From NCBI RefSeq assembly GCF_035918095.1, contig NZ_CP109137.1, positions 3,288,001 through 3,352,000 on the forward strand: DNA of 64,000 nucleotides, written 5' to 3'. The DNA comes from Streptomyces sp. NBC_01750. Its GTDB lineage: Bacteria; Actinomycetota; Actinomycetes; Streptomycetales; Streptomycetaceae. This document shows, piece after piece, positions 4,503 to 21,019 of the stretch; within the stretch, counting starts at the first letter, position 1, and each line of letters starts with the position of its first letter. The notes under the pieces were generated by a model. The model saw nothing but the letters and a program-made list of their open reading frames with translations, had not been told where the DNA came from and ran no database searches. A program made the translations under genes and the position numbers.

Positions 4503-5432
4503 CACATAGGGCGGACGCTTGATGTCCGCGTCCTTCGTGCCCGCGACGGCGTCGTTGAAGAGGGCCTGCGCGTCCGCGCCGTAGAGCGGCGAATAGGTGA
4601 TCCAGTCGACGTTCTGGTCGTTGCCGCCGCCGTTGTAGCCGCCGGTGTTGCCGATGACCTTGCCGGTGCGGGTCCGGGGGTCGTAGTCAGTGATCCACGG
4701 ACCGCCGGAGACCCCGCCGTGGAAGCCGCCGCAGACCATCCGCATCTGCCGGAAACCAGGCAGTGAGGAGGTGTTGACATCGCAACGGAACGCCTGGTGC
4801 TGCTTGTTGACGTCTTCGCCGCCGGGATAACCGATCACGGTGGCGGTGTGGCGATAGCCGGACGCCCGGGTGAAGGTGAGTGCACCGGTGACGTTCTCGG
4901 CCTTGCCCCTGCCGTTCGGCGCGAGCTGCGCGAAGGCGAGGTCCAGGTCGGAAACGGGCTGCTTGGTGTTCTGCCGGTACCTCGGGTCCACGAAGATCCG
5001 CTTCACCTCGAAGACGCCGCTGGGCTGGTTGGCCGCGGAGGATCCGTGGCGGTACTGCGGTACGAAGACGGGGTGCGTGGCGCTCCTGAGGCCGATGGCG
5101 CAGTGACCGGCGGTGAGGACCAGATCCTTGCCGCGGCTGTGGACGACGCTGCCCGTGCAGGACGTCTCCCTGCCGCCGAACGGCTTGCCGTCGTAGAAGA
5201 ACGTGCCCACCATCGGCAGGCCGCCGAAGTACGTCCCCTGTTTGGTGCCGCCGGGCGCTTCCGCCCGCTCCGGCCCGTACCGGTCCGAGTCGACGGGTAC
5301 GGCGTCCGCCATGCGCTCGGCCGTCCAGAACCTCTCGCCCTCGGTGCGGGTCGCTGCCGAAGCGGGACCGGGGCGGAGTACTCCCGCGAAGACGATCAGA
5401 GCGAGTACAGGAAGCCAACGTGAGCGCAACAC
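4479..5432 (-). CDS. Secreted trypsin-like serine peptidase
   Basis: This is a secreted chymotrypsin-fold peptidase of 317 residues. The signal peptide is VLRSRW followed by a hydrophobic core and ASAA cleavage region. The catalytic triad is visible as His in TAGHC, Asp in SDLDLAF and Ser in GGVSGGP. Two Cys flank the His motif and two more lie near the Ser, consistent with disulfides. GTG 5432 was chosen because it gives a standard signal peptide; an upstream in-frame ATG at 5501 would add 23 polar residues. Homologues are common in streptomycetes and their substrates are unknown. It converges on bglC with a 24-bp coding overlap. Confidence 0.85.
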
Positions 5433-5527
5433 ACTGTCTCTCTGCTGGAGGGGCAACGGCCGTGACGAGGCGATACTTGTACCCAAGGGGTCCGGCGACA
5501 TTCCAGGACCCGTCGGAGCCGGCGACC

Positions 5528-5980
5528 TCAGTCGTCGCCGAGCACTGGCCACGTACTCCGTCGGGCGCGACGCAGCAGCACCGGATCGTCGCCCACGACC
5601 ACCGGATTGCCGACCTCGGTCAGCAGGGCGAGGTCGGCCGCCTCGTCCGCGTACGCCGAGCAGTCCGCCGGGTCGAAGCCGTACTCCCGCATCAGCGTGC
5701 GCGCGGCGTACCCCTTCCCCCGGCCGCGCATGCACGTCAGCATCTCGTCCGCGCCCAGGCGCGCGGCCAGCGGCGCCACCACGGGCAGCGGAGAGCTGGA
5801 GACCAGCACCATCAGATCGCCCGCCACCGCGTGCCGCACATACGCGGCGAGGCCGGGCTCGTTCCACAGTGCCCGCCGCACCAGCGTGCCTCCCACGTCG
5901 AAGAACGCGGCCTTGCGCGGGACTTGGCGGGTTTTGACGGTGATGGGAGTGATCGGGGCAACCGTGTCGCTCATGCCCAT
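5528..5980 (-). CDS. Short HAD-IB-like hydrolase
   Basis: This is a 150-residue HAD-superfamily protein. Motif I is FFDVGGTLVR, with the nucleophile Asp near residue 24; motif II is VSSSP; and the acidic end motif is in AYADEAADLALL. The C-terminal stretch GNPVVVGDDPVLLRRA resembles the SerB-like IB subfamily. It lacks the cap segment usually found between motifs I and II (about 40 residues separate them), so it is shorter than typical 200-280 residue members. Motif I has Gly at the third position where most HAD phosphatases have a second Asp, which may alter or abolish phosphatase activity. The gene is divergent from the S41 peptidase gene. Confidence 0.7.
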   Translation of the reverse strand: MGMSDTVAPITPITVKTRQVPRKAAFFDVGGTLVRRALWNEPGLAAYVRHAVAGDLMVLVSSSPLPVVAPLAARLGADEMLTCMRGRGKGYAARTLMREYGFDPADCSAYADEAADLALLTEVGNPVVVGDDPVLLRRARRSTWPVLGDD

Positions 5981-6133
5981 CAGTACGAAGTGCCGCCACG
6001 CATCACTCAAAAGTCGTGGGGGTTTTCCCCACCCCGGAGTGACCGGACAGCGGGATGTCGCCGACAGGTCGGACGGTCGATCGTGGTGGTACGTGATCGA
6101 CGACGTGGGACGACGTAAGGGGAAGGCACCATC

Positions 6134-7549
6134 ATGCAGCTCAGGAGTGGTTCGGGCACCATCTGCAGGACGATCGCGGCGGCGGCGCTGCTGGCCGTGA
6201 CCGCGAGCGTGGCCCTGCCGCTCGCCCCCGCAGACGCGCGGCCGTCGCAGCCGCCGCAGCCGCCCGCCGGTGTGTGGCAGGCCGACGGCTACGGCGAGGT
6301 GTTCTCGCTGGACGGGAGCCGGCTGCAGGAGTACCAGGTCACCGGCGTCAGCTGCATCAAGGGCGTTTCGGCCGGGCGCGCGGGCGGGCAGGCGGGAGGC
6401 GCCCGGTACGCCAACGCGCACGGCGATGTCTTCACCGTACGGTCCACGGGCCGTCCCGACCGGGCCGCGATGCATATCGACGGCTCACCGGGCGACCGCG
6501 GTCTGCGGCGCATCGGCGCTCTGCCCGCAGACTGCCTCAAGGAGAAGCCCGGCGGGCCGGTGGCCGCCTTCGACGTCTTCTGGCAGACCTTCGAGGAGAA
6601 CTACCCCTTCTTCGCTGCCAAGGGCATCGACTGGCAGGCGGTCCGGGACCGCTACCGCCCCCACATCGGCCCACGCACCACCGACGCAGAACTCTTCGCG
6701 GTCTTCCGGGAGATGGTCTCACCGCTGCATGACGCGCATGTCGCCGTGCTCGCCGGCGAGACCGGCCGCTTCGGCTCGACCCGGCCCGGCACCGAGATGC
6801 CCGGCGAGGCGCTGGACACCAAGGTCACCTCGTACATCGAGAAGCGCGATCTGTTGGGCACCAAGCTCAGGAAGTTCGCGGGCGGCCGGATCGGATACGC
6901 CGAACTGCCCGGCGGCCAGGGATACTTGCGTATCTCCGGCTTCGGCGGCTACGCCGAGGCGAACGACTTCGCCGCCAACAGCGCCGTGCTGGACGAGACC
7001 CTGGACACGATCTTCACCCGAGCGAGCACCGCCCGGCTGCGCGGCCTGATCATCGATCTGCGGATCAACGGCGGCGGCTCCGACTCGCTCGGGCTCCAGC
7101 TCGCCGGGCGCCTCACCGGCCGCCCGTACTTCGCCTACGCCAAGCGGGCCCGTAACGACCCCGCCGACGCGAGCCGGTTCACCCGCCCGCAGCCGCAGTA
7201 CGTACGGCCCGCGGCCGCACCCCGGTACACCGGCCCGATCGCGGTGCTGACCGGAGGCTCCACCATCAGTGCCGGAGAGACCTTCACCCAGGCGCTGATG
7301 GAGCGGCCCGGCCGGACCGTACGGATCGGCGAGAACACTCAGGGCGTGTTCTCCGACGCGATGGAGCGCGAGCTGCCCGGAGGCTGGCAGATCCGGCTGC
7401 CGAACGAGGAGTTCCTGACCCGGTCGGGCGGTACGTTCGACGGCCCCGGAATCCCGCCGCAGCTGCCCGAACCGGTCTTCACCGAGGAGGAGTTCGCGAA
7501 GGGTCGCGACTCGGCCTTCGACCGGGCCGTCGCCGTGCTCGGCCGCTGA
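6134..7549 (+). CDS. Secreted S41 family (tail-specific/tricorn-like) peptidase
   Basis: This 471-residue exported protein has an N-terminal signal peptide ending near PADA. The S41 core spans roughly residues 240-460. The substrate-binding strand region is LIIDLRINGGGSDSLG, and the nucleophile Ser is probably that of GGSTISAGETF, the usual S41 position. A ribosome-binding site (AAGGGGA) precedes the ATG. The upstream part includes DVFWQTFEENYPFFAAKG, which is typical of C-terminal processing and tricorn-core relatives. The gene is monocistronic and ends at a strong hairpin shared with the convergent chitinase gene. The substrate is unknown. Confidence 0.85.
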   Translation: MQLRSGSGTICRTIAAAALLAVTASVALPLAPADARPSQPPQPPAGVWQADGYGEVFSLDGSRLQEYQVTGVSCIKGVSAGRAGGQAGGARYANAHGDVFTVRSTGRPDRAAMHIDGSPGDRGLRRIGALPADCLKEKPGGPVAAFDVFWQTFEENYPFFAAKGIDWQAVRDRYRPHIGPRTTDAELFAVFREMVSPLHDAHVAVLAGETGRFGSTRPGTEMPGEALDTKVTSYIEKRDLLGTKLRKFAGGRIGYAELPGGQGYLRISGFGGYAEANDFAANSAVLDETLDTIFTRASTARLRGLIIDLRINGGGSDSLGLQLAGRLTGRPYFAYAKRARNDPADASRFTRPQPQYVRPAAAPRYTGPIAVLTGGSTISAGETFTQALMERPGRTVRIGENTQGVFSDAMERELPGGWQIRLPNEEFLTRSGGTFDGPGIPPQLPEPVFTEEEFAKGRDSAFDRAVAVLGR

Positions 7550-16053: not shown

Positions 16054-16932
16054 ATGCCGCACACCGCGCCTCGTCATCGGCCCCGCTGGTGGACCGAACT
16101 GATGCTCATCGTCGTGGTCTACGCCGCCTACTCGGCCGGCCGGCTGCTCGCACGCGGCAACGAGGCAGCCGCGGTCGAGCACGGCCTGGCGATACTCCGG
16201 GCCGAGAAGGCACTCCTGCTCAACGCCGAACACCCGCTCAACCGCCTCCTCAGCAGCACCCCGGCCCTCGGCGTTCCCGCCGATTTCGCCTACGCCTCCC
16301 TGCACTATCTGGTCACTCCGGCCATTCTGGTCTGGCTCTTCCGGCGCCGCCCCGCCCGCTACCGGGCCGCCCGCACATGGCTCATGCTCTCCACGCTCCT
16401 CGGGCTCGTCGGCTTCACGCTGCTGCCGACCTGCCCGCCGCGGCTGCTGGACGCAGGCCAGGGCTTCGTCGACACGATGGCCCAGTACAGCTCGTACGGC
16501 TGGTGGGGTGGCGAGGCGAGTGCGCCGCGCGGTATGGGCTCAATGACCAACCAGTACGCGGCGATGCCGAGTCTGCACGTCGGCTGGGCCCTGTGGTGCG
16601 GGGTGATGCTGTGGCGGCACGGCCGCACGCCGCTGATGAAGTTCCTCGGCGTCGCCTACCCGCTGCTCACCACGTTCGTGGTGATGGGGACGGCGAACCA
16701 CTACTTCCTGGACGCGGTCGCGGGCTGCGCCGTGATGGGCATCGGCCTGCTGCTGACCCGCCCCGCGCTGCGCCTCGCCGACCGGATGCGTACGCGCTTC
16801 ACCGCCGCCGCTTCCGGCTCGAAGTCCCCGATTGTCAGTGCCGGATGCGAGACTTCCGCGGGTGAGCGAATCCCTGGGCAGCGGACCTCCTCCGCAGGCG
16901 CCGACGACAGCACTCCGGCAGCGGCTCGCTGA
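16054..16932 (+). CDS. PAP2 superfamily membrane phosphatase/phosphotransferase
   Basis: This 292-residue membrane protein has about six membrane segments. The C-terminal PAP2 motifs are visible as AMPSLHVGWA (Ser-x-x-His) and TANHYFLDAVAG (His with downstream Asp). Together with the GSMTNQYAAM segment this places it near the AUR1/inositolphosphotransferase-like branch common in actinobacteria. It should act on a lipid phosphate or phospho-head group at the membrane. ATG 16054 was chosen with GGAG 9 nt upstream; ATG 16039 is an alternative. Its last 71 bp overlap the next gene, so the downstream operon may be read from the same transcript. Confidence 0.82.
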   Translation: MPHTAPRHRPRWWTELMLIVVVYAAYSAGRLLARGNEAAAVEHGLAILRAEKALLLNAEHPLNRLLSSTPALGVPADFAYASLHYLVTPAILVWLFRRRPARYRAARTWLMLSTLLGLVGFTLLPTCPPRLLDAGQGFVDTMAQYSSYGWWGGEASAPRGMGSMTNQYAAMPSLHVGWALWCGVMLWRHGRTPLMKFLGVAYPLLTTFVVMGTANHYFLDAVAGCAVMGIGLLLTRPALRLADRMRTRFTAAASGSKSPIVSAGCETSAGERIPGQRTSSAGADDSTPAAAR

Positions 16933-18016
16933 GCTGCGCGGCCCCGCCGCCCAGCCCCATCCGCTCGACGCCCGGGCGCTGGCCGCCCTCGCCGCCAACC
17001 CCGGCTGCAAGCGCCGCGCGCTGCTGGACGGCGCCGGGGTGGACAAGGCGGCGCTCGCCTCCGCGCTGGGGTCGCCTGCCGCGTTCGGGCAGTCGCAGTT
17101 CGCTTTCATGCGCGGCAATGCCTTCGAGGCGAAGGTCAAGGCCGACGGCGGCAAGGAGCTGACACGACTCCTCGGCGTGGAAACCGCGGCGGAGATCCGG
17201 GTGCCCGATCTGTCGGCGGCCGGTCCCGAGGGCCGCGCGGCACGTACGGCACTGGCGCTGCGCGAGGCCACCGCGGCCGGTGGGTGGACGCTGCTCGACC
17301 ACCCGATGCTGGCGTTGCAGGTCGCGGGCTCCCCCGCCTATCTGGAGCCGGACGCGGTGGTCGTGCACCCCGACGGACGGTGGACGGTCGTCGAGATCAA
17401 GTCCTTCCCCATGATCGACGGCTCGGCGGACGCGGCGAAGGTGGGCGCGGCGGCGCGACAGGCCGCGGTGTACGTACTGGCGCTGGAGCGGGTCGCCGCG
17501 CTGACGGACGGCGCGCGGGTCGCGCACAGCATCCTGCTGGTCTGCCCGAAGGACTTCTCGAACCTGCCGACGGCGTCCGTCGTCGACGTGCGCAAGCAGC
17601 TCTCGGTGACCCGCCGCCAGCTGGCCCGGCTGACCCGGATCGAGGACATCGCCGCCGCGCTGCCCGAGGGCACCACCTTCGACCTGGAGCGCCCGGCCGA
17701 TGAGCTGACCGCGGCGGTCGAGTCGGTGTCCGCGGCGTATGCGCCCGAGTGCCTGGCCGCCTGCGAGCTGGCCTTCCACTGCCGCGACCGGGCCCGCGAG
17801 GCCGGAGCCGTGGAAGCGCTGGGGCGCGGGGTGCGCGGCGAGCTGGGCGGACTGACGACGATCGGCGAAGTGCTGGCGGCGGCACGGGGCTCGGCCGCCG
17901 CCGCGCCTTCCGGCGAGACCACCGCCGGAGCCCCGGAGGACGATCCGGCGGTCGCGGCCCTGCGCAGGGCCGCGACGCTGCGGGCCGAGGCGCTGGAGGA
18001 GGCCGGATGTCGCTGA
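16862..18016 (+). CDS. Cas4/AddB/Dna2-type PD-(D/E)XK nuclease with probable Fe-S cluster
   Basis: This 384-residue cytoplasmic protein shows the RecB/Cas4 nuclease motifs. RGNAFEAKV is near 84-92, the motif II Asp is 164 in LEPDAVVV, motif III is Glu178-x-Lys180 in VVEIKSF, and the QxxxY motif is Gln200-Tyr204 in RQAAVYVLA. One Cys near 49 (NPGCKRRALLD) and three near 297, 301 and 307 (CLAACELAFHC) have the spacing expected for the 4Fe-4S cluster of Cas4, AddB and Dna2 nucleases. GTG 16862 was chosen; a TTG at 16832 is possible. It overlaps the following gene by 10 bp. It is the first gene of an operon with a helicase, so a DNA-end processing role is likely but unproven. Confidence 0.7.
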   Translation: MSESLGSGPPPQAPTTALRQRLAELRGPAAQPHPLDARALAALAANPGCKRRALLDGAGVDKAALASALGSPAAFGQSQFAFMRGNAFEAKVKADGGKELTRLLGVETAAEIRVPDLSAAGPEGRAARTALALREATAAGGWTLLDHPMLALQVAGSPAYLEPDAVVVHPDGRWTVVEIKSFPMIDGSADAAKVGAAARQAAVYVLALERVAALTDGARVAHSILLVCPKDFSNLPTASVVDVRKQLSVTRRQLARLTRIEDIAAALPEGTTFDLERPADELTAAVESVSAAYAPECLAACELAFHCRDRAREAGAVEALGRGVRGELGGLTTIGEVLAAARGSAAAAPSGETTAGAPEDDPAVAALRRAATLRAEALEEAGCR

Positions 18017-19638
18017 TCTCCATCCTTGCCCGGCTGGAGGCCGTGGAGTCGGGGCGGGCCACCCCGCTGGCGACCGTGCGGCACCGGCATCTGTCCGAGC
18101 GGCCGCTGGTACTCGTACCGCTGACCACGGCCGGTGAGGCGGGTGCGCCACTGGGCGCGCTGGTGGGAACGGATCCCCAGGAGCCGCGGTTGCTGGTCGT
18201 GCCGCAGCCGCGCGACCGCGATCTGCGCTTCACCTTCCTGGCCGAGCTGGCCGATGCCGTACTGCCGCACCTCGACGCGTACGCCGACGATGTCGAGCCT
18301 GTCGGGCCTGGGGGCACCTCCCGGCCGAAGGCCGGGGGAGAAACCGGCACCGAGACCGGCAAGGGCGACAAGGCCGACAAGGCCGAGGTCGAACTGTGCG
18401 CGGACGCACCGCAGTTGATCGTGCCTGGACGGGCCGGCGTCGACTTCGTACGGCTCCTCGGCCGCTCGATGCGCTTCCGGCGTACGGCCGAGGATGACCC
18501 CGACGCGCCCTACCCCGCGCCGCCGCGCGTCCCGCTGCTCGGCCGCTGGCTGACGCACTACGGCGAGCGCGCCCGGGTGCCCGGCTCCTCGCTGCTGCTC
18601 GCGGCGACCGATCTGCTGAACCGGCACTGGGCGACCGGCCAGTCGAGCCTGGAGGACCAGCATCTGGGCGCGTTGCTCGCCTGGATCGACCCGCCCGACG
18701 GCACATCGGGCGCTCAGGCCGCGCTGCGGGCGGAGCTGGCGCGGGACCGGGCCGGGCAGCTGCTCTGCCCGCCGGCCGGCCCGGCCACCGACCCGGCCTT
18801 CGACAACAGGCTGCTGGCCCCGGCCGTCGAGCGCTACGACCGGGCGCGCCAGGCGCTGGCGGCGGCCGAGGACGGTGCGGCGGCCGACGCGCGTCTTGGC
18901 GAACTGACCGTCGCCGAGCGGGAGATCCGCCGACTCGTGGCCGGCCAGCTGCAGCCCACCTGGCAGGCGGTGTGGCGCGGCCTCGAGCTGCTGCGGGAGC
19001 TGCCGGAGGGGCCGCGGGCGGCGGATCGCTGGACGCGCGACCGCTGGTCGTTCACCGCGCAACGCGATCGCGTACGGGCCGGGGAACCACCGCAGCCGCG
19101 GCGCGACGACGCGGTGACGGCCGCGCGGAAACTCGCCTCCCGCGAGACGGCCCAGGCGCAGCTGGAGGCCCAGGAGGCGCTGGACGACCCACTGGTGCTG
19201 GCGGGGCGCAGACTGGCGGGCGAGGCGTTCATGGGCGAGGTGACCGAGGTCGTGATGGCCTGGTCCGAGTCGAAGCGGCCGAGCCCGCGTCCCCTGCTGA
19301 CCGTCCGTACGGACGACCGCCCGCATCTGAGCGAGCGCGTGAAGGTGTACCGCTCGCTGGACGGCAAGCCGCAGACGGCCGAGTTTGTCGGGTTCACAGG
19401 GTCCGAGGCCGAGGGTGTGCTGGTGCTGCGGCTGACCGACCGCATGGGCCGGTCCAAGGACCCTGCGGAAGGCTCCGTACCGGAGAAGGGCGAGCGGATC
19501 GCGTGGACCCTGTTCGAGCACGGCCGGCGGGGCGGCCCGAAGCTGCCGGACCAGGAGGAAACCCCATGGACCCACGGCGGCCCTCCGGGCACGGCCGCGG
19601 AGAGCCCGGACCCCGTGACCCCGGAGGACATTCTGTGA
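18007..19638 (+). CDS. Unknown protein between nuclease and helicase genes
   Basis: No family is recognised. The product has 543 residues. Residues 1-100 look globular (beta-rich, no Cys). Residues 100-125 are a hydrophilic linker that coincides with a palindromic repeat in the DNA. Residues 125-390 are mainly helical, with Trp-rich stretches near PTWQAVWRGLELL. A C-terminal basic-to-beta region around 400-510 (SERVKVYRSLDGKPQTAEFVGF and VLVLRLTDRMG) could be an OB or SH3-like fold. No membrane helix or catalytic motif is seen. Its start overlaps the nuclease gene, so the product is probably made in fixed ratio with it. A DNA-binding or scaffold role is only a guess. Confidence 0.7.
   Translation: MSLISILARLEAVESGRATPLATVRHRHLSERPLVLVPLTTAGEAGAPLGALVGTDPQEPRLLVVPQPRDRDLRFTFLAELADAVLPHLDAYADDVEPVGPGGTSRPKAGGETGTETGKGDKADKAEVELCADAPQLIVPGRAGVDFVRLLGRSMRFRRTAEDDPDAPYPAPPRVPLLGRWLTHYGERARVPGSSLLLAATDLLNRHWATGQSSLEDQHLGALLAWIDPPDGTSGAQAALRAELARDRAGQLLCPPAGPATDPAFDNRLLAPAVERYDRARQALAAAEDGAAADARLGELTVAEREIRRLVAGQLQPTWQAVWRGLELLRELPEGPRAADRWTRDRWSFTAQRDRVRAGEPPQPRRDDAVTAARKLASRETAQAQLEAQEALDDPLVLAGRRLAGEAFMGEVTEVVMAWSESKRPSPRPLLTVRTDDRPHLSERVKVYRSLDGKPQTAEFVGFTGSEAEGVLVLRLTDRMGRSKDPAEGSVPEKGERIAWTLFEHGRRGGPKLPDQEETPWTHGGPPGTAAESPDPVTPEDIL
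18308..18340. repeat. Streptomycete palindromic repeat inserted in frame
   Basis: This 33-bp GC-rich element has inverted ends (GGGGGCACCTCCCGG and CCGGGGGAG type). It resembles the short palindromic repeats scattered through Streptomyces genomes. Here it is 11 codons long and keeps the reading frame, adding a hydrophilic linker (GPGGTSRPKAGGE) to the host protein. A related element disrupts a gene at 38826-38868. Confidence 0.6.
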
Positions 19639-19685
19639 CGGCCGCTGTTGACCCCTCCGCCGCTGCGGGCGGAGGTGCGCTGTGA
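19635..19685 (+). CDS. 16-codon coupling minigene between unknown and helicase genes
   Basis: A GTG overlapping the upstream TGA opens a 16-codon frame. Its own TGA overlaps the GTG of the helicase gene (GTGA at both ends). The peptide VTAAVDPSAAAGGGAL resembles the start of the helicase (VFDPSAEAARATDA), so it may be a remnant or partial duplication of that N-terminus. It could act only as a translational-coupling bridge across the 43-bp gap. Expression is not shown. Confidence 0.3.
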   Translation: MTAAVDPSAAAGGGAL

Positions 19686-21019
19686 GCGGGCGCGTCTTCG
19701 ATCCGTCTGCCGAGGCCGCCCGGGCCACCGACGCGATCCTCTCCGACACGCTGCACGGAACACACCGCGGCGTCGTCGTGGACTCGCCTCCCGGCGCGGG
19801 CAAGTCGACGCTCGTCGTGCACACCGCGCGGGAACTGGCGGCTGCCGGGCGACCGTTGATGGTCATCGCGCAGACCAACGCGCAGGTCGACGACCTGGTG
19901 GTCCGGCTCGCCGGGAAGGAGCCCGACCTGCCGGTCGGGCGGCTCCACAGCAACGACGCCGACCCGTACGACAAGGCCCTCGACGAGCTCGACAACGTAC
20001 GCAAGTCCGCGAAGGCCGGTGACCTGGCAGGCCTGGACATCGTCATCTCGACCGCCGCGAAGTGGGCGCATGTGCAGGGCGTGGAGCCCTGGCGGCACGC
20101 CATCGTCGACGAGGCGTACCAGATGCGTTCCGATGCGCTGCTCGCCGTCGCCGGGCTCTTCGAACGGGCGCTGTTCGTGGGTGACCCGGGCCAGCTGGAC
20201 CCGTTCTCGATCGTGGGCGCGGACCAGTGGGCCGGGCTGTCGTACGACCCGTCCGCGAGCGCGGTCTCGACCCTGCTCGCGCACAACCCGGAGCTCCCGC
20301 AGCACCGGCTGCCGGTCTCCTGGCGGCTCCCGTCGTCCGCCGCACCGCTGGTCTCGGACGCGTTCTACCCGTACACACCCTTCCGCAGCGGTACGGGCCC
20401 GGACGACCGGCGGCTGGCCTTCGGTGTGCCGTCGGACGGCTCGGGGCCGGACCGGGTGCTGGACGAGGCGGCGGAGTCCGGATGGGGTCTGCTGGAGCTG
20501 CCCGCGCGCAGCACGCCCCGTACGGACCCCGAGGCGGTACGGGCCGTGGCCCTGGTGGTCCGCCGGCTGCTGGACCGCGGTGGCGCGGCGACCAGCGAGC
20601 GGTCGGCGGACCCGGTCCCGGTGACCGCGGAGCGGATCGCGGTCGGCACGGCCCACCGCGACCAGGCCGCGGCGGTACGGGCGGCCCTGGCCGAGGTGGG
20701 CGTCGCCGATGTCACCGTGGACACCGCCAACCGCCTCCAGGGCCGGGAGTTCGACGTCACGGTGGTCCTCCACCCGCTGTCGGGCCGCCCGGACGCGACG
20801 GCGTTCCATCTGGAGACGGGCCGGCTGTGCGTACTGGCCTCCCGCCACCGGCACGCGTGCATCGTGGTGTGCCGCGCGGGCATCACGGACCTGCTGGACG
20901 AGCACCCCTCGACGGAGCCTGTCCAGCTGGGCGTCACGGTCAAATTCCCGGATGGATGGGAGGCGAACCACGCGGTGCTGGCCCACCTGGCGGAACACCG
21001 TGTGAGCTGGCGACCGTGA
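19682..21019 (+). CDS. Superfamily 1 (Upf1/Dna2-like) DNA helicase
   Basis: This 445-residue P-loop helicase has Walker A PPGAGKST at 36-43, motif II DEAY at 143-146 and motif III GDPGQLDPF at 167-175. A motif IV region is HRLPVSWRLP near 208-217, motif V is VDTANRLQGREFDV at 346-359, and motif VI is LASRHRHA near 385-392. These are in the order of the SF1B Dna2/Upf1 group. It is a compact form without a fused nuclease; the nuclease-like gene is two genes upstream in the same operon. The GTG start is coupled to a 16-codon minigene. ATP-dependent unwinding or translocation on DNA is expected; RNA cannot be excluded. Confidence 0.85.
   Translation: MSGRVFDPSAEAARATDAILSDTLHGTHRGVVVDSPPGAGKSTLVVHTARELAAAGRPLMVIAQTNAQVDDLVVRLAGKEPDLPVGRLHSNDADPYDKALDELDNVRKSAKAGDLAGLDIVISTAAKWAHVQGVEPWRHAIVDEAYQMRSDALLAVAGLFERALFVGDPGQLDPFSIVGADQWAGLSYDPSASAVSTLLAHNPELPQHRLPVSWRLPSSAAPLVSDAFYPYTPFRSGTGPDDRRLAFGVPSDGSGPDRVLDEAAESGWGLLELPARSTPRTDPEAVRAVALVVRRLLDRGGAATSERSADPVPVTAERIAVGTAHRDQAAAVRAALAEVGVADVTVDTANRLQGREFDVTVVLHPLSGRPDATAFHLETGRLCVLASRHRHACIVVCRAGITDLLDEHPSTEPVQLGVTVKFPDGWEANHAVLAHLAEHRVSWRP

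Follow-up and report, generated by a model that had tools for sequence, protein, structure and literature searches.

A conserved three-gene locus of Streptomyces predicted to encode a split DNA2-like helicase-nuclease

A compact run of three genes, here called N, M and H, is located in a 64,000-nucleotide stretch of DNA from Streptomyces sp. NBC_01750 (contig NZ_CP109137.1, positions 3,288,001 to 3,352,000; hereafter 'the window'), at 3.29-3.35 Mb of an 8.9-Mb contig. N is predicted to be a nuclease of the iron-sulphur (Fe-S) type, M a bridging protein and H a helicase of superfamily 1B (SF1B). On the basis of sequence comparisons and predicted structures, we propose that the trio represents a split DNA2-like enzyme, and thus an unannotated three-gene form of a known kind of enzyme. 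The features of the locus are listed below in window coordinates, each with the evidence for it (ORF, open reading frame; pLDDT, predicted local distance difference test score).

16862-18016, + strand: gene N, predicted PD-(D/E)XK nuclease with a four-cysteine (Fe-S type) set, 384 amino acids (ORF, motifs, model)
17006-17008, + strand: codon of C49, first cysteine of the predicted Fe-S cluster (sequence, 64/64 conserved)
17351-17401, + strand: N active site, D164 ... E178-x-K180 (sequence, alignment)
17750-17752, 17762-17764 and 17780-17782, + strand: codons of C297, C301 and C307 (sequence)
18007-18016, + strand: 10-bp overlap of N and M (sequence; overlaps in relatives too)
18007-19638, + strand: gene M, putative bridging protein, 543 amino acids (ORF, model pLDDT 89)
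19105-19518, + strand: M residues 367-504, predicted stalk helix and beta-barrel (model, fold search)
19635-19685, + strand: 16-codon ORF joined by GTGA to both M and H (sequence)
19682-21019, + strand: gene H, helicase core of SF1B (UPF1/DNA2 type) lacking domain 1B, 445 amino acids (ORF, profiles)

A first-pass annotation of this DNA had described three separate ORFs with a 10-bp overlap between N and M, and both points are confirmed by the sequence. The GTGA links that it reported are likewise present, but they do not form a single M-H junction, as a 16-codon ORF lies between the two genes and has GTGA at each end. This short ORF is likely to be a translation-coupling element. A direct 4-bp overlap of H with the stop codon of M is found in 15 of the 20 other Streptomyces loci compared. 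Given that the frames and the gene order recur in relatives at ~36-90% identity, we do not consider the layout to be a product of chance.

The active-site residues and the cysteine set proposed for N in the earlier annotation (C49, D164, E178-x-K180, Q200-xxx-Y204, C297, C301 and C307) are all present in the window and are conserved. An alignment of 64 sequences, with identity down to 26-29%, retains the four cysteines, K180 and Y204 in every member, E178 and Q200 in 62 each and D164 in 59. A second set that includes paralogues (n = 39) retains D164 and the four cysteines in 39/39, with L and R replacing E178 and K180 in 3/39. The predicted structure (pLDDT 91.5) adopts a PD-(D/E)XK fold whose top matches are Cas4, LHK-Exo, RecE, AddAB and lambda exonuclease, and EXO5, AdnA and Dna2 are also among the matches. 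Sequence and model together support the classification of N as a PD-(D/E)XK nuclease with the cysteine pattern of Fe-S ('iron staple') nucleases, and the protein very probably carries such a cluster. The PDDEXK_1 profile is matched weakly by 10 of the 64 relatives (best E = 0.0014).

Assignment of the third gene to the SF1B helicases also holds. H exceeds the Pfam cut-off of 27 with both AAA_11 (45.6 bits) and AAA_12 (33.6 bits), and a profile built from 34 H sequences finds SMUBP-2/IGHMBP2 (E = 1e-14), DNA2 (7e-14) and UPF1 (7e-12), as well as SEN1 chains. These sequence matches support a helicase of UPF1/DNA2 type, for which we assume a 5'-3' polarity from family membership. Motif I (PPGAGKST) occupies residues 36-43 and is preceded by only 35 residues, and the DE pair is at 143-144. 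Because the alignment with SMUBP-2 begins at profile position 19 (approximately H residue 18), corresponding to SMUBP-2 residue 197, some 180 N-terminal residues of SMUBP-2, which we take to be its stalk and domain 1B, have no place in H. These elements are not present before motif I in the H chain, and a similar element occurs in M at residues 367-504. Among the defence proteins of PADLOC-DB 2.0.0, H matches helicase stretches of other, mostly larger proteins, the best being MkoC (E = 1e-8).

The middle protein had been called unrecognised, and this remains true at the level of sequence: searches of the window N and M against Pfam, NCBIfam, PADLOC, PHROGs and PDB sequences identified no significant family, and neither protein matches NCBIfam or the PADLOC-DB 2.0.0 defence models at E <= 1. 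By structure, however, the stalk helix and beta-barrel of M have residues 7-140 of IGHMBP2 as their best match, such that the C-terminal third of the M model resembles the part missing from H, namely the stalk and domain 1B. Given this resemblance, the helicase itself is likely to be split, beyond the separation of nuclease from helicase.

The three genes appear to be inherited together. In a class sample of 197 genomes (threshold for H, E <= 1e-20), strong matches to N, M and H coincide in the same 29 genomes; two such sets of 29 would coincide by chance with a probability of 2e-35, a value that ignores kinship. N has one extra match, a weak one (G357, E = 1e-10; G and L numbers are our handles for genomes and for loci or contigs). 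An M match in G085 (L064) was rejected as a chance match in the frame of an oxidoreductase-like ORF. When the genus was sampled with M only, the gene was found in 79 of 81 Streptomyces genomes (77 of the 78 of high quality), and neither of the two genomes without it (G413, with an estimated completeness of 100%, and G426, 82%) has N or H. This streptomycete-wide conservation, which had been put forward beforehand as a sign of repair, speaks for genome upkeep over defence. Among 40 regions fetched and assessed for gene content by tblastn, 36 carry N-M-H in this order, two carry N-M only (L054, L057), one is the chance match L064, and one (L065) carries a distant version, N-M'-H, with 4-bp overlaps, whose middle gene was missed by tblastn and is matched by the M profile at E = 2e-21.

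More distant relatives were collected by scanning genome contigs with the M alignment, and the best 80 of at least 586 confirmed stretches (the 'named loci') derive from Streptosporangium, Nonomuraea, Actinomadura, Micromonospora and Amycolatopsis, among other genera. N adjoins M in all 80, at 361 bp or less, and H is present in 69, in 64 of which it is located within 200 bp of M. No N-M or M-H fusion was found in the 36 three-gene loci or in the 80 named loci. These comparisons support N-M-H as a real co-inherited module. The surroundings of the Streptomyces core copies are also conserved. Of the eight flanking ORFs scanned in the window, a TPR-like gene (upstream), a GGDEF/EAL gene (downstream) and a response regulator could be named, and the TPR gene recurs in 20 of 20 core loci (one as a short match) and the GGDEF/EAL gene in 17 of 20.

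Many relatives include a fourth gene, X, which encodes 255-361 amino acids (its starts are uncertain) and is located at most 158 bp before N in 60 of the 80 named loci by tblastn, or 61 by profile. X also occurs in L052, L053, L058, L062 and L066-L071. It is absent by profile within the 21 Streptomyces core loci, window included, and a search of the window's genome with one divergent query found no homologue. In a paralogous X-N-M-H group of three Streptomyces genomes (L067-L069), the E and K of the nuclease site have been lost and the motif reads L-x-R. Because D164 and the four cysteines are nevertheless kept, N may play a structural role in these loci, judging from its sequence.

The SbcCD (Mre11-Rad50) genes are a neighbour rather than a homologue of the module. 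SbcD and then SbcC directly follow X-N-M-H or N-M-H in four named genomes (L145, L151, L154 and L172), on the same strand and with a gap of 2-133 bp before SbcD. X also has a divergent SbcD as its neighbour in half of the six Streptomyces paralogue loci (L066, L070 and L071; a chromosomal location is not established for the drafts) and in the plasmid copy L094, and L096 gave partial matches; the Pfam matches of SbcD/SbcC were verified in L145, L154 and L094. SbcCD does not adjoin the window copy, and one query located SbcD-like genes of the window's genome at 1.4 Mb and near each end of the main contig. The two terminal genes (G000 C1, 13930-14778 and 8871201-8872049) score equally and have opposite orientations. 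Streptomycete chromosomes are linear, and such a pair is as expected for terminal inverted repeats.

Other relatives reside on mobile elements or beside defence genes. Two Streptomyces plasmid copies are located ~150 bp ahead of the Wadjet genes jetABCD. Two IMG/VR contigs (L185 and L186) hold X-N-M-H by profile, followed by a convergent C5-cytosine methyltransferase gene (the two products are 51-53% identical to each other), with two phage-type integrases or a serine recombinase nearby. Methyltransferase queries matched 3 of 112 loci, the third being a Euzebya plasmid, and they missed an annotated cytosine methyltransferase ~7.6 kb after H' in L093. No Wadjet genes turned up in the fetched flanks of the six other Streptomyces paralogue loci or of the 80 named loci. 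A distant clade of N includes proteins from Mycolicibacter, Dietzia, Kineosporia and an Acidimicrobiia metagenome-assembled genome that are 69-70% identical to that of L065 (among the best 120 of 736), and an integrase gene is located near L065. At E <= 1e-15, this clade is represented in 3 of 396 genomes of the phylum; for one of them (G050) the locus is of the window type.

H matched 50 plasmid records, and on the four plasmids that we tested (L092, L093, L095 and L097, from Rhodococcus, Mycobacterium and Euzebya) an M'-type gene lies ahead of the helicase gene, H', and neither N nor X is recognisable by profile. A profile of M' that includes the L065 middle protein aligns with that of M at an hhalign probability of 97.7 (E = 1e-12); with hmmsearch, the M profile matches only the Euzebya M' among these four (E = 4e-8). 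On plasmids of Rhodococcus, Mycobacterium and Xylanimonas, M'-H', or the gene that occupies the M' position, is preceded by MoxR/AAA and VWA-like genes, of which the AAA gene seems truncated or disrupted in L092 and L097. The full run on the large actinobacterial plasmids L092, L093, L097, L191 and L193 is MoxR/AAA ATPase, VWA-like protein (DUF2201 in L092), ~60-amino-acid protein, M' (assigned from position alone in L191 and L193) and H'. The Pseudarthrobacter plasmid L192 departs from the gene order observed around H' on the other plasmids. In L187 (G504), the end of H is overlapped by an ORF at 5059-6753 (- strand) that has an RNase_H_2 domain at its C-terminus and represents an exonuclease-like addition to N-M-H.

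Queries with the N proteins of the window and of L186 found nothing in 50,697 phage records, and N queries from the distant clade, L185 and L186 (the window N not among them) matched no plasmid. In IMG/VR, none of the 17 pattern matches of the N profile was confirmed as a relative. Given that the two IMG/VR contigs found with the H profile both hold N by hmmsearch, we attribute this last result to a limit of the search rather than to absence.

The nearest characterised enzyme is Bad of Geobacillus stearothermophilus, to which we compare the trio by its description. According to the excerpted text of that report, Bad is a single-chain bacterial DNA2-like helicase-nuclease that combines an Fe-S cluster and a 5'-3' motor with a central domain to which no function is assigned; its authors describe a sporadic distribution among bacteria and a second class, found in Mycobacteria and Rhodococcus, and a methyltransferase gene lies beside bad in Geobacilli (PMC7430649). 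As there described, it resembles N-M-H in having the Fe-S nuclease first, a central part next and the SF1B helicase last, and in being distinct from AddAB/RecBCD. It differs in being one sporadic polypeptide, whereas N-M-H comprises three genes that keep the same order and are near-universal in Streptomyces. Eukaryotic DNA2 is also a single chain. Its domain order, as proposed for N-M-H, is nuclease, a 1B-bearing part and then RecA1-RecA2. Similarity to DNA2 in sequence was found in the motor only.

The TM0106 family offers a further comparison, for which four ~1110-amino-acid copies were fetched from Rhizobium and Sphingomonas plasmids. These proteins have a similar layout, with a RecB-like nuclease (by annotation), a middle part and an AAA_11/AAA_12 helicase, but each is a single chain and has an RNase_H_2 domain. 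PDDEXK_1 matches weakly, below its cut-off, in one of two family members scanned. The helicases align well (hhalign E = 1e-20), and the notion that N-M-H is a simple split of TM0106 was not supported at the level of sequence for N (E = 0.56) and M (E = 0.7), in what is a weak test with four close target sequences. TIGR03491 has no match in the window's genome, compared with matches in 7 of 14 control genomes, and does not match H. On a Rhizobium leguminosarum plasmid (L195, 1797-5131), a TM0106-type gene that is one ORF in relatives is annotated as two overlapping ORFs, a nuclease and a DNA2/NAM7-family helicase. AdnAB and AddAB share with the trio the DNA-end processing that we propose for it, and their nuclease domains (in AdnA and in both AddAB chains) are among the fold matches of N, but their motors are of the UvrD-type SF1A class whereas that of H is of UPF1 type. 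The adnAB genes are said, in the title of a 2014 report by Zhang, to be essential in Streptomyces. A literature search found nothing on the N-M-H trio.

We lean slightly towards the view that a DNA2-like helicase-nuclease is built from N, M and H as its three subunits. In the mechanism we envisage, H would be an ATP-driven motor core of RecA1 and RecA2 that pulls on a single strand, and M would be a hub whose C-terminal stalk and beta-barrel (residues 367-504) dock on H in place of the missing domain 1B. This docking seems probable. The remaining part of M would hold N at the mouth of the motor, a contact that we regard as nearly as plausible, and N would be the Fe-S stapled nuclease that cuts the strand as it is fed in. 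The Streptomyces copy could then be a core, vertically inherited enzyme for processing DNA ends or flaps, acting beside AdnAB and partnered with SbcCD in some actinomycetes. Upkeep is reasonably likely to be its main role; we favour end or flap processing because of the fixed, housekeeping-like neighbours and the presence of SbcCD next to some copies. A more elaborate version is speculative and rather unlikely as a whole: a heterotrimeric bacterial DNA2 in which M supplies domain 1B in trans and the motor is on only with the nuclease docked, acting with SbcCD as a counterpart of eukaryotic MRN-DNA2 end resection that is core in streptomycetes, while mobile copies with X, a C5-methyltransferase or Wadjet serve immunity.

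Several observations qualify the proposal. The window N does not match PDDEXK_1 or Cas_Cas4 at E <= 1, contrary to the expectation of the first-pass annotation. The linkage claimed for the three genes has exceptions. H was not found in 11 of the 80 named loci; one of these (L169) stops at a contig edge, and the other ten, all from Micromonospora or Verrucosispora, have 4.7-9 kb of sequence past M. In two genomes of one genus, H is located 36 and 49 kb from N-M on the same contig. With H set apart or missing after M, N-M is the tighter pair in that lineage. The paralogues beside Wadjet, a C5-methyltransferase or recombinases keep alive the suggestion of the first-pass annotation that the module serves defence. 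Under that explanation, N-M-H would be a restriction-like or anti-plasmid module that degrades incoming DNA, and the core copy would be domesticated or a genus-wide immune system. The spread of the distant N clade across several genera, the integrase near L065 and, in the excerpted account, the methyltransferase beside bad in Geobacilli (PMC7430649) are compatible with it. However, near-universal M with conserved neighbours is unlike the patchy occurrence of defence genes, the PADLOC models miss N and M, Wadjet was not found at the other loci searched, and methyltransferase queries matched few loci, although other methyltransferase types would escape that test. We judge this explanation to be unlikely.

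It is also conceivable, though doubtful, that the beta-barrel of M is an ordinary one, that M serves independently as an adaptor or binds DNA, that H functions alone and that the three proteins act sequentially, with no split helicase. Under this explanation it would be unexpected that the best barrel matches belong to the helicase family of H itself and cover the very region missing in H, and that M' precedes H' on the four plasmids where N and X were not found by profile. A role in processing RNA or R-loops is suggested by the matches of H to UPF1, SMUBP-2 and SEN1 chains besides DNA2, given that its relatives UPF1, Senataxin and SMUBP-2 act on RNA. We consider this role very improbable, as the top fold matches of N are DNA nucleases and the neighbours in several lineages are SbcCD, Wadjet or a DNA methyltransferase.

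End processing in Streptomyces is described as atypical, in that the helicase-nuclease thought to start resection could not be deleted from S. ambofaciens (not viable), according to the excerpted text of one study (PMC5124664). It is in this same genus that three unannotated genes, near-universal in occurrence, would encode an enzyme of DNA2 type. If M indeed completes the helicase in trans, the trio would provide a genetic and biochemical handle on domain 1B in DNA2, UPF1 and IGHMBP2 motors, because 1B could be added or omitted. Through the gene runs that include SbcCD, an MRN-DNA2-like pathway could be put to the test in bacteria, and the relatives beside Wadjet and a methyltransferase suggest one machine serving repair and defence alike.

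The 3' end of H has a feature of its own. In 3 of 20 Streptomyces loci, the last 73 bp of the gene (window 20947-21019) are repeated in tandem two to three more times downstream, with a common 5' boundary:

L080, 11233-11735: H-end repeats, period 169 bp
L084, 6318-6912: H-end repeats, period 253-269 bp
L088, 11638-11914: H-end repeats, period 140 bp

Among 150 Streptomyces genomes sampled, 121 matched this sequence and 19 have at least two copies less than 300 bp apart (hand count); a few have a copy far off or near contig ends. The repeat may be an integration or recombination site. Three of the 20 loci (L078, L080 and L089) lack the genes that are otherwise conserved downstream of H or have them displaced, as if the 3' end of H were an insertion hot spot.

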